A stretch of 64,000 bases of DNA. It comes from Alcanivorax sp. DG881. GTDB lineage: Bacteria; Pseudomonadota; Gammaproteobacteria; Pseudomonadales; Alcanivoracaceae. Of the stretch, positions 9,447 to 63,740 are shown in pieces (positions within the stretch are counted from its first letter, which is position 1; each line of letters starts with the position of its first letter). The notes below the pieces were generated by a model. That model saw only the letters and a program-made list of their open reading frames with translations, did not search any database and was not told the DNA's origin. A program made the position numbers and the translations under genes. The stretch spans positions 2,001,955 through 2,065,954 of the forward strand of contig NZ_DS989915.1 in NCBI RefSeq assembly GCF_000155615.1, given 5' to 3'.

Positions 9447-9603
9447 GAGTTAAAAGTGAAAAGTTCAAACGCGAAGCTGGCACAGCGCTAACCGGATAAT
9501 ATTTTGCTCCGCGCTTTACGCTAAACGGGAACGCGGGCACGGCCTTCCCGATACAAAACACATTCGCCGCGCTTTTGAACTTTAAACTTTACACTTTCAA
9601 CTC
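9447..9603. repeat. Heptamer-ended cassette, family A, copy 1
   Basis: The left end reads AAGTGAA, AAGTTCA, AACGCGA in phase from 9454, after GAGTTAA. The right end read from the other strand is GAGTTGA, AAGTGTA, AAGTTTA, AAGTTCA, ending at 9603. So both ends start GAGTTRA and are inverted to each other. The core is about 96 bases, begins and ends with CGCG-rich sequence, and has no gene I can support. Confidence 0.75.
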
Positions 9604-9608
9604 AACAT

Positions 9609-30794: not shown

Positions 30795-30812
30795 ACGCCG
30801 CACGCCCCAGGC

Positions 30813-30857
30813 TTCACGCAACACGCCGCGTGTAAGCCTGCTGCGTGTTACGTGAAG
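30813..30857. repeat. Heptamer hairpin, family C, between ftsY and ftsE
   Basis: Written in sevens from 30813 the sequence is TTCACGC, AACACGC, CGCGTGT, AAGCCTG, CTGCGTG, TTACGTG. The first two units pair with the last two as a 14-bp stem (one mismatch). So the repeat folds on itself inside the operon and could slow or end transcription or stabilise the mRNA. The same unit recurs at 33754-33774. Confidence 0.65.
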
Positions 30858-33738: not shown

Positions 33739-33753
33739 AGATACGCTGCATGC

Positions 33754-33774
33754 TTCACGCAACAGGCAACACGC
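33754..33774. repeat. Heptamer repeat, family C, after rpoH
   Basis: Three tandem units TTCACGC, AACAGGC, AACACGC lie just before the rpoH terminator. A further GTAACACGC at 33837-33845 is in the same direction, so this copy is not a clean inverted pair. Confidence 0.5.
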
Positions 33775-33775
33775 T

Positions 33776-33801
33776 AAAAGCCCCTTCCGAGGGGCTTTTT
33801 T
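33776..33801 (+). terminator. Intrinsic terminator of rpoH
   Basis: AAAAGCCCC (33776-33784) pairs with GGGGCTTTT, loop TTCCGA, followed by more T residues. Confidence 0.92.
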
Positions 33802-38599: not shown

Positions 38600-38716
38600 A
38601 CGCCGAATGCCGGATGCCTGACGAAAAACACGCGGCCTGAAATGCTGCCGCTATTCCGAGACGCTTTCCCCGTTTTGCGGCGCGCAGGGGTTTTGTATGA
38701 AAGCATCCGGCATACT
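38600..38716. repeat. Heptamer-ended cassette, family D, short copy
   Basis: Left end in sevens from 38600: ACGCCGA, ATGCCGG, ATGCCTG, then ACGAAAA. The right end on the other strand reads ATGCCGG, ATGCTTT (38716-38703). About 80 bases of core without a gene. It sits between the divergent MFS and metX genes. The remaining 38717-38841 must hold the metX promoter; I saw no SAM riboswitch there. Confidence 0.65.
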
Positions 38717-38841
38717 GGATGCACAGAACCGCGAAAATACCGTGCCCGATTCGGCAGGATACCATGGCAACGGCCGGGCTTTGATTGCGCCCCCACCGGG
38801 CGGGCTTTAGACTTTGCGACATCTCTTGCTAGCGAGTCATC

Positions 38842-40648: not shown

Positions 40649-40657
40649 TTCAGGAGC

Positions 40658-40816
40658 AAGTGGAAAGTTCAAAGTTGAAAAGCGCGGTAGAGTTGGCAGG
40701 GCTCTGTCAGGCCCTCGCCGCGATACCACTTCTTTTGCAGCGCGAGGACATTGCCATTTCGAGCAACCCACAGCCTTTCCCCGCGTTTTGAACTTTCAAC
40801 TTTGAACTTTCAACTC
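40658..40816. repeat. Heptamer-ended cassette, family A, copy 2
   Basis: Left units from 40658: AAGTGGA, AAGTTCA, AAGTTGA. Right units read from the other strand from 40816: GAGTTGA, AAGTTCA, AAGTTGA, AAGTTCA. The core is about 110 bases and differs from copy 1, but both cores start with CGCG-rich sequence next to the repeats. The overall length (159) matches copy 1 (157). Confidence 0.8.
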
Positions 40817-40829
40817 ATCAGGATACCCC

Positions 40830-42666: not shown

Positions 42667-42671
42667 AAATG

Positions 42672-42801
42672 GCAGTTAATAATGAGCAATTAATAGTGAA
42701 CAACTAAAGAAAAACCCCTAGTCACCCGACTCTGTTACCATACTCCAACCCGGCACTGTTTTTTATCTGTCGCTATTAATTATTCACTATTCATTATTCA
42801 T
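42672..42801. repeat. Heptamer-ended cassette, family B, copy 1
   Basis: Left units from 42672: GCAGTTA, ATAATGA, GCAATTA, ATAGTGA, ACAACTA. Right units on the other strand: ATGAATA, ATGAATA, GTGAATA, ATTAATA. GGCA or GGGCA stands at each outer edge. The 67-base core holds no gene. It fills the whole yaiI-hemW divergent gap. Confidence 0.75.
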
Positions 42802-42810
42802 TGCCCTTCC

Positions 42811-46259: not shown

Positions 46260-46265
46260 AAAAAA

Positions 46266-46403
46266 GGCAATGAATAGTTAGTAATGAATAATTAATAACG
46301 AAAACCAACACAACATCCAAAAGCATGCATGTCTTAGGCTACACTGCTTCCGCAACTCGTTTTTCAATTATTCATTATTAACTATTAACTATTCATTATT
46401 AAT
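46266..46403. repeat. Heptamer-ended cassette, family B, copy 2
   Basis: Left units from 46270: ATGAATA, GTTAGTA, ATGAATA, ATTAATA, with GGCA outside. Right units on the other strand from 46403: ATTAATA, ATGAATA, GTTAATA, GTTAATA, ATGAATA. The core is about 70 bases. It fills the mutM-hyuA divergent gap from six bases before one start codon to eight before the other. Confidence 0.8.
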
Positions 46404-46411
46404 TTACTCTC

Positions 46412-49749: not shown

Positions 49750-49856
49750 CATTCATCTCTTTCCAAGCATTTTCCCCGTTTTTTTGGTTCATCGCGGAAT
49801 GGAGTGATGAGTCGATTTCAGGCGTTACCTCTTTATCCAACCTCGACAATCGCTGG

Positions 49857-50040
49857 GCGCCAGATGCCCGACGACGGACGCTTGCATTTCAAACCATGGC
49901 CGCTATGCGATCTTCGCAAAACGAATGGCTCAATGATTCCCTGAATAATGGCCCTGGAGCCCTCAAAAGAAATACCGCAATAGCGACAGCCACTCAGGCT
50001 ATGGGGGTCTACGTCAGGCATCCGGCGTCGAGCGTTTGGC
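49857..50040. repeat. Heptamer-ended cassette, family D, no gene
   Basis: Left units from 49857: GCGCCAG, ATGCCCG, ACGACGG, ACGCTTG. Right units on the other strand: ACGCTCG, ACGCCGG, ATGCCTG, ACGTAGA. The two ends are inverted and align well. The core of about 130 bases has an open frame (minus strand, 88 codons) that crosses both repeats and has no ribosome site, so I do not call it. The rest of the gap to 50155 shows nothing. Confidence 0.7.
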
Positions 50041-50155
50041 AACAAAGTGCGGAGGGATTCGCTATAAGCTAACCAAACGGCAAGAAGCGTGTTATTCACT
50101 CTAATCCGTGATGAACCTTTCTTGGTCGGCCAGCATTGAATACCGGTTTACATGC

Positions 50156-62498: not shown

Positions 62499-63173
62499 TC
62501 ACAACGCTCCTCGCGAAGCCAGTGACACCCAGCCACCATCACCGATTACCAGATGGTCTAACACTCGGACTTCCACCAATCCTAGCGCCTCCACCAATCG
62601 CCGGGTGATGGCATGGTCCGACTGGCTGGGCTCAGCCACGCCCGATGGGTGATTGTGGGCCAGGATCACAGCTGCGGCGTTGTGCTCCATGGCCCTACGC
62701 ACCACTTCCCGCGGATAAACCGCCGCCGCATCGATGGTGCCCTGAAACAACTTCTCAAAGGCAATCAGTCGATGCTTATTATCCAGGAACAGGCAAGCGA
62801 ACACCTCAAACGGTAACCCGCGCAACTGGGCCGTAAGCAACTGCCCGGCCTTGTCCGGATTATCCAGTGGCTGCCCCCGCTCCAGAGGCTCCGCCAGATA
62901 GCGCCGCCCCAGCTCCAGCGCCGCCAGCAACAACGCCCGCCGGGCGGTCCCCATACCGGGCAAATGCGCCATGCGTTCCGGGCCCAGATCCAGCATGGCC
63001 CGCAAACCACCGCTGCCCGCCAACTGCCGGCGCGCCAGATCCACCGCCGTCATGCCCTGCTGGCCGGTACGTAGAAAGATCGCCAACAACTCCGCATCAC
63101 TGAGCGCCCCGGCACCCCGCGCCAGCAACTTCTCCCGCGGCCGCTCATCCGCCGGCCAGTCTGTTATGGCCAT
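62499..63173 (-). CDS. radC: JAB/MPN-domain protein RadC
   Basis: A 224-residue RadC-family protein. N-terminal helix-hairpin-helix part ([39 protein letters not shown]), then the MPN metal site [21 protein letters not shown]. Its precise role is unsettled despite the name. The ATG at 63173 follows the stop of the four-helix-bundle gene by two bases and has no clear ribosome site, so it may depend on coupled translation. Confidence 0.93.
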
Positions 63174-63175
63174 GG

Positions 63176-63565
63176 TTATACGCCCCACGCCTGAGGCCGG
63201 ATGCCTGACGCTAAAAACGTCTCATCCTGCATACGGGTGATCAACGCTGACAACTGGGCGAACACTTTCTCCGTTTGTCCAATAAGCACGTTGGCACCGG
63301 CATATGCCAGCCTTGCGGCTATGGCAATCTGGGTCTCGAGCTCCATCAACGAGCCTCTGGCGATATAAAAGAACCGCAGTCGGTCAGCCTGCGAACCCCG
63401 CCCATATCCCTCCGCTATATTGGAGGGAACGCTGACCGACGCCCTGCGCATTTGGCTAACGAGTCCAAATTGCTCGCTCCGTGGGAAATCCTGCGTTGCC
63501 TTATAGATCAATACCACCAAGTCCATGGCTGACTGCCAAACCCGAATTTTCTCGTACGTCCTCAC
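63176..63565 (-). CDS. Four-helix-bundle protein, S23/IVP family
   Basis: A 129-residue protein of the 23S rRNA intervening-sequence/S23-like four-helix-bundle family: [41 protein letters not shown] and [16 protein letters not shown] are its hallmarks. Members sit in 23S rRNA intervening sequences or stand alone; function is not established. A GTG start has GAGGGAG eight bases upstream. The gene lies inside a family D cassette, and its last 12 residues ([12 protein letters not shown]) are coded by the repeat block itself. radC follows after two bases. Confidence 0.85.
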
Positions 63566-63613
63566 AATCTTGCTCCCTCTTTTGCGTCAGGCATCAGGCA
63601 TGTGGCGTCCTGC
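63180..63613. repeat. Heptamer-ended cassette, family D, carrying the S23-like gene
   Basis: Left units from 63180: ACGCCCC, ACGCCTG, AGGCCGG, ATGCCTG, ACGCTAA. Right units, other strand: ACGCCAC, ATGCCTG, ATGCCTG, ACGCAAA. The inner edges agree (GCCTGACGC then A-rich), as in the short copy at 38600. It is 434 bases long, and the only gene inside is the four-helix-bundle gene. It sits in the divergent space between radC and coaBC. Confidence 0.8.
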
Positions 63614-63740
63614 CAACCGTCCTGCGTGCCGCGTCTCTTATACAGTGCTACTCTATGCAGCCTGACTTGATAGCAGCCTTGCAGCTGCAGCGGCAGTGGA
63701 GATTCGCCATGCCTGCCGTCATCCAAACAAGGGTTTTTGC

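Follow-up and report, generated by a model that had tools for sequence, protein, structure and literature searches.

S23 genes between inverted arrays of 7- or 8-bp units form a candidate family of mobile cassettes

The radC cassette and related array pairs in the genus

The window (the whole 64,000-nucleotide stretch analyzed here, from a host genome of 3.8 Mb) carries between radC and coaBC a small gene encoding an S23/IVP protein (PF05635, four helix bundle protein; minus strand, 63176..63565, 129 aa, GTG start). By direct reading, its stop codon lies 2 nt ahead of the radC ATG at 63173, and a likely ribosome site, GGGAG, is found at 63571..63580 on the same strand. Profile searches place the protein within the family, with 119.8 bits against PF05635 (cut-off 33.8) and 116.2 bits against TIGR02436 (cut-off 24). 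Tandem 7-bp units form an array on each side. The array 5′ of the gene (63584..63635) has a strong part at 63584-63606 with a lag-7 score of 10 and reads on in degenerate units beyond, while the 3′ array (63180..63211, lag-7 score 11) abuts radC and overlaps the last codons of the S23 gene, which on direct reading are themselves spelled in heptamers. A preliminary description of this DNA had proposed a cassette holding an S23/IVP gene between facing heptamer arrays, and the two ends do give a best inverted match score of 17, a value reached in 0/400 shuffles. The extent proposed for it stands as regards arrays on both sides and needs correction at the far array, part of which, with units to ~63635, falls beyond the earlier range. 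An S23 gene between inverted ends is also the plan of the 23S rRNA intervening sequence; the radC cassette, at its radC/coaBC location, is not within a 23S rRNA gene. Compared with its counterpart in the congener G009, the S23 gene has 12 synonymous and 3 nonsynonymous differences (pN/pS 0.08) and on this comparison is under purifying selection.

The genome carries four S23 genes, each between inverted arrays with a word of their own: GCRTCAG-like at radC, GCGTGCA-like at metK-ahcY (where the arrays are short, with lag-7 scores of 7 and 5), GAGCTAC at cysC and TTAATAR-like at glyA-nrdR. Members of the family are present in 16/17 genomes of the genus, G001 being the one with no match. A tree of 32 genus proteins (of 44 matches above cut-off) fully supports a glyA-nrdR group and a radC-plus-metK group and does not resolve the cysC-type remainder as one group; judged by eye, groups differ in word family and sub-groups in sub-word. 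At cysC, left arrays resemble their own right arrays (0.764) more than the arrays at the same site in other species (0.626; 0/5000 permutations), and at glyA-nrdR the joint change of the two ends was equaled in 9/5000 permutations. By these alignments the two ends change together at one site at cysC and glyA-nrdR; joint change is not significant at radC (779/5000) or metK-ahcY (3735/5000, L002 left out).

The window also holds array pairs that enclose no gene. Array and inverted-match scores mark AGTTNAA-like pairs at 9447..9606 and 40655..40818 and a TTAATAR-like pair at 46262..46408. A further pair at 42670..42805 has a degenerate left array (lag-7 3/16), and two short pairs share the word type of the radC cassette, one at 38600..38725 (inverted score 11; lag-7 9 and 5) and one at 49850..50045 (inverted score 15; lag-7 7 and 7). 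The inverted ends reported earlier for these six gene-less sites (9447, 38600, 40658, 42672, 46266 and 49857) are borne out in that each inverted match exceeds 400/400 shuffles; since the sites were picked post hoc, these are not independent P-values, and three of the sites (38600, 42672 and 49857) are weak as arrays. Across the whole window, 7 lag-7 segments score at least 11, against a mean of 0.35 and a maximum of 2 in 60 shuffles. Two further heptamer arrays, of ACGCAACACGC type and absent from the preliminary description, lie at 30795-30826 and 33745-33781.

Within the genus, 864 kb from ten genomes contain 49 period-7 inverted pairs, compared with 5 in total at six other periods, where pairs shared by descent are counted repeatedly and are not independent because the stretches are mostly one orthologous region. 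Judged by interior size, 4 or 5 of the 49 contain S23. All 49 come from 784 kb of nine genomes, compared with 0 in 80 kb of G001, a single genome and the one member of the genus in which no S23 gene scores. We rejected the idea that gene-less pairs are copies of one interior: 44 interiors of at least 40 bp gave five within-genome matches only, all of them the same 27-nt piece at one pair of sites, and since this piece reads as promoter-like it was set aside as evidence of copying. No clean movement of a gene-less pair was caught in the comparisons made.

Some positions in the genus have held more than one kind of insert. At metK-ahcY an SAH riboswitch is found in 11/17 genomes and is absent from the other six, of which five have an S23 cassette (of two word types; the gene in G009 has a stop inside) and one, G001, has an array-ended gene-less remnant. 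The loci at which the riboswitch before ahcY is missing are L212, L213, L217, L220, L225 and L228; G014 (L226), for its part, has two in tandem before ahcY, at 1239-1316 and 1403-1480. At radC and at 40658, one place can hold different words and interiors in different species. Congeners lacking the cassette at the radC locus have other leader sequence, with no clean joined site. Array-to-array recombination could account for such replacements if its main act were that S23 anneals or pairs arrays and the DNA between facing arrays is exchanged, cassette-like. Insertion followed by deletion could also yield a replacement, and together with the empty sites described below this leads us to regard array exchange as the main act as quite unlikely. 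The similar words that gene-less pairs use and the G001 remnant at metK-ahcY suggest that these pairs may be moving derivatives of the cassettes.

S23 genes and arrays across bacteria

Across phyla, S23 genes elsewhere also lie between short-period arrays. Loci were sought with the protein as query and without regard to arrays, and the 80 best of 583 were kept, so the set stays close to the query. Two of these had too little length for scoring, leaving 78, and three more were too short for the tree, leaving 75. Arrays with a lag-7 or lag-8 score of at least 8 flank both sides of the gene in 63/78 cases, compared with 12/223 other ORFs of the same loci (S23 paralogues excluded; Fisher P = 8e-38), and the expectation that S23 genes sit between such arrays more often than chance is thus upheld. 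The remaining 15/78 are without detectable arrays. Of the 63, 41 have period 7 and 22 period 8; counts at the remaining periods between 4 and 13 range from 0 to 4. Arrays are likewise found in 9/18 genes of order relatives, 21/24 genes of class relatives, 11/12 genes of a Nostoc genome (mostly with different words) and 20/30 genes of many-copy Bacteroidota; before genes giving two rows were merged, these sets had 19, 25, 14 and 31 rows, with 9, 22, 12 and 21 positive. The class set omits L318 and L327 as well as loci whose flanks were too short or that gave no profile match, and the Nostoc and Bacteroidota sets overlap the first 80 by at least five genes.

Array type follows the protein. On the S23 tree of 75 rows the labels 7, 8 and none require 22 changes (shuffled mean 31.1, 0/200 as low), a clustering to which near relatives contribute on a tree with many unresolved forks; the label none alone is unclustered (317/500). 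Judged from these trees and words, period and word go with S23 lineage. Order-wide, at least 10 matches to AGYTNNN arrays occur in 6/19 genomes with S23 and 8/126 without (Fisher P = 0.0036), with a threshold set after the counts were known and tandem arrays counted several times.

The arrays at the two ends are built from a common repeat word without duplicating one another. Similarity between the left array and the inverted right array of the same locus is 0.708 for period 7 and 0.676 for period 8, compared with between-locus unit similarities of 0.466 and 0.463, and inverted orientation beats direct in 56/63 S23 loci. The order of variant units, on the other hand, shows no mirroring, with a best inverted match above the unit-permutation mean in 24/49 S23 loci and 29/47 genus pairs (P ≤ 0.05 in 3 and 4, respectively), the genus pairs having been picked for word similarity, not order, and including 4 or 5 S23 cassettes. 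On this ground we rejected both ordinary terminal inverted repeats and a conserved hairpin or RNA stem. The unmirrored order also speaks against palindrome copying and a cruciform stem. Shared word without shared order fits many small binding sites.

Cassettes occupy characteristic positions in host operons. Among 72 loci (eight had no neighbors or lacked 1 kb on a side), S23 is co-directional with both neighbors in 54, opposite to both in 4 and mixed in 14, whereas ordinary ORFs are co-directional with both neighbors in 85/157 cases. In co-directional cases the left array starts at most 10 nt from the upstream stop in 34/46, and the right array ends between 15 nt inside and 34 nt before the next start in 36/49. 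One example adjoins sufB. S23 genes are also found inside CRISPR operons at L083, L085 and L386, twice as cas6-S23-cas4 and once as cas10-S23-cmr3.

Such placement at stop and start codons, and an S23 orientation that is sense in 54 loci and antisense in 4 where neighbors agree, could mean that S23 is no mobility factor at all. The arrays would then be slippage-prone leader repeats with a role in RNA or translation, S23 would be an RNA-binding regulator, and ordinary recombination or transfer would do the spreading. TAACTGA repeats are taken as translation signals in the portions of MacGregor 2015 (PMC4679880) available to us. However, the array positions can arise if insertions that damage tight operons are selected against, and read-through expression can explain the sense orientation. 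The absence of a mirrored stem and the unrelated neighbors of the cassettes also argue against a regulator, as do the precise empty sites and the presence of related elements in unrelated places (below), and we judge this reading unlikely.

An S23 gene on an Azospirillum plasmid (L087) lies inside a full LSU rRNA match and has heptamer ends, so that this intervening sequence shares the anatomy of the cassettes; it was the sole LSU rRNA case among the nine S23 loci scanned besides the radC cassette. On this one case, the classical 23S rRNA intervening sequence appears to be a place where the element can land. An intervening sequence in an rRNA gene, the sense orientation of S23 and a weak similarity of S23 to Avd would also suit an element that moves as RNA and is reverse transcribed by an enzyme in trans. 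PF05635 is described as resembling Avd, a related family, in the accessible part of PMC10053308. S23 falls far below the Avd cut-offs (20 of 40 bits for PF22296, 18.6 of 80 bits for NF033474), and the Avd of diversity-generating retroelements (DGRs) works with a reverse transcriptase partner, whereas this genome has no RVT_1 match. Since RVT_1 is unmatched in 11/16 S23-bearing congeners, this genome among them, a trans-acting reverse transcriptase was rejected as a candidate, and with no mirrored stem either we consider movement as RNA highly improbable.

Related copies and empty sites

Comparisons of S23 loci reveal related elements at unrelated places. Two loci of the Nostoc genome G161, L281 and L288, align from array to array over ~500 positions at 81% identity, with unrelated flanks; a second pair, L280 and L289 (86% identical), matches from the start codon to the end of the right array. 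Three loci on cyanobacterial plasmids, L373, L374 and L375, have ~416 bp in common at 79–83% identity, although their sites are unrelated. L280 and L289 have in addition ~23 nt in common just past the right array, though their sites are otherwise unrelated. The diverged Nostoc S23 copies L288 and L289 carry a similar ~22-nt insert at the same codon, and both frames are broken.

Empty sites, which the preliminary description had called for, do exist and are cleanest on cyanobacterial plasmids. The Trichormus (L374) and Scytonema (L377) plasmids, compared with three empty plasmids whose flanking genes are 97–98% identical to those of L374, contain one insertion with GTAAT on both sides. One Nostoc plasmid has an S23 element in the gap from gene A to gene B and another plasmid has a different element in the gap from B to C, so that each provides the empty site of the other. 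A further two pairs of occupied and empty sites, from Calothrix and Picosynechococcus, have junctions that are more diverged. Three events differ at the target: one has a duplication of 5 bp, one a 3-bp overlap, and at L373, where insertion also shortens the preceding gene, ~9 bp are lost. The Trichormus insertion place is occupied in L381 by a left array and a truncated S23 remnant (1643-1776); three further records have a similar shortfall at the level of the match listing. Within the genus there are no clean empty sites because the intergenic DNA is too diverged, and the one array-ended gain seen there, G003 compared with G016, is not clean.

On these alignments, the arrays are the boundaries of an element that has related copies at unrelated sites and occurs in occupied and empty states. 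The empty sites of Calothrix, Trichormus and Nostoc have no apparent array, so exchange between preexisting arrays cannot be the sole route. Boundaries, empty sites and lineage-coupled words support the earlier idea of an element and of a link between its protein and its word. Carriage as phage cargo was considered and rejected, with one weak match in 50,697 phage records (one query) and 19 loci in IMG/VR (one pattern).

S23 as a candidate mobility factor

The evidence above points to a widespread family of mobile, selfish cassettes whose cognate mobility factor is probably S23. The preliminary description offered S23 as a candidate trans factor or, alternatively, a cassette system recombining at heptamers; both ideas, like that of moving gene-less derivatives, are inferences here too. 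The closest solved relative of the protein is 2gsc (E = 1e-28, five chains in one entry). According to the accessible text of two later papers (PMC4990558 and PMC10053308, citing Lin et al. 2006), 2gsc is a homopentamer of four-helix bundles. Several results weigh against this role: by eye, S23 has no recognized catalytic motif, 15/78 S23 genes have no detectable arrays and order relatives reach 9/18, the ends at radC and metK-ahcY show no significant joint change, junctions differ from event to event, and AGYTNNN arrays are also present in genomes that have no S23. A cassette would consist of an S23 gene enclosed by two facing arrays of tandem units, 7 bp long or, in some S23 lineages, 8 bp, and would reside in operon leaders and intergenic gaps of the host, for the most part in sense orientation. 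S23, related as it is to a ring-shaped pentamer, may bind the array units singly and bring two facing arrays together, whereupon the cassette would move; gene-less pairs with the same word may be moved likewise by S23. Cutting and joining could be the work of S23 itself by a novel route or of host break repair, and the target would be variable, with duplication, overlap or loss at the junctions.

A bolder proposal is that S23 is a mobility protein of a new class. It would form a ring of five subunits that counts off units of 7 or 8 bp and reads a lineage-specific word, such that DNA between two facing arrays of that word would be a mobile cassette. Ribosomal intervening sequences, operon S23 genes and the orphan heptamers of Xanthomonas, Nostoc, Beggiatoaceae and Calothrix would all be its traces, which we think possible without yet calling it probable. 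These orphan repeats (GGGAATC in Xanthomonas, GGGGA(C/T)T in Nostoc, TAACTGA in Beggiatoaceae and heptanucleotides in Calothrix) likewise consist of 7-bp units, often in facing pairs, and were reported with no associated protein and interpreted as quadruplexes or translation signals. For Xanthomonas, the part of PMC4692102 accessible to us places GGGAATC repeats near stop and start codons, counts 70 facing pairs in X. campestris, reads them as quadruplexes and describes them as generally unlinked to insertion sequences. The genome G547 has an S23 gene (L336) that is broken by a stop codon and lies between GGGAATC-type arrays. Doublets of GGGAATC match this genome 29 times, with overlaps, at 21 places, four of them facing pairs, and a search of seven other genomes gave no match. 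No near-identical copy of the Xanthomonas gene XCC0516 was found among the 369 genomes sampled, the best match being 60% over part of its length.

The cassettes resemble several known systems and differ from each. Like the 23S rRNA intervening sequence, they have an S23 gene between inverted ends, but that sequence is an rRNA insert removed by RNase III, whereas the cassettes described here lie between protein genes; word- and period-specific arrays and gene-less pairs also set the cassette family apart from intervening sequences as described. In Coxiella, GACAGAT heptamers precede S23p within the intervening sequence and differ in number among strains, according to the accessible text of PMC4990558. 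Among the open PubMed Central papers searched, we found none joining S23 genes to heptamer or octamer array ends generally. REPINs with their RAYTs, and MITEs, are numerous short inverted elements of intergenic DNA, presumed to rely on a protein supplied in trans. The cassettes are likewise small, intergenic and inverted, but their ends are tandem arrays with a shared word and no shared order, and S23 cassettes have no recognized transposase. The terminal inverted repeats of IS elements and MITEs are copies of each other, unlike the cassette ends.

PF05635 proteins are common and include a solved pentamer, yet we know of no function for them and, to our knowledge, no means of movement is known for rRNA intervening sequences. 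One element family would tie together PF05635, these intervening sequences and the separately reported heptamer repeats. For annotators, intergenic inverted repeats may be element ends, as with the cassettes that occupy the SAH riboswitch place of congeners. With a common word in unmatched unit order, the cassette ends differ from the termini of known insertion sequences, which are mirrored. If S23 alone suffices, the cassettes would constitute a recombination system without a recognized recombinase.
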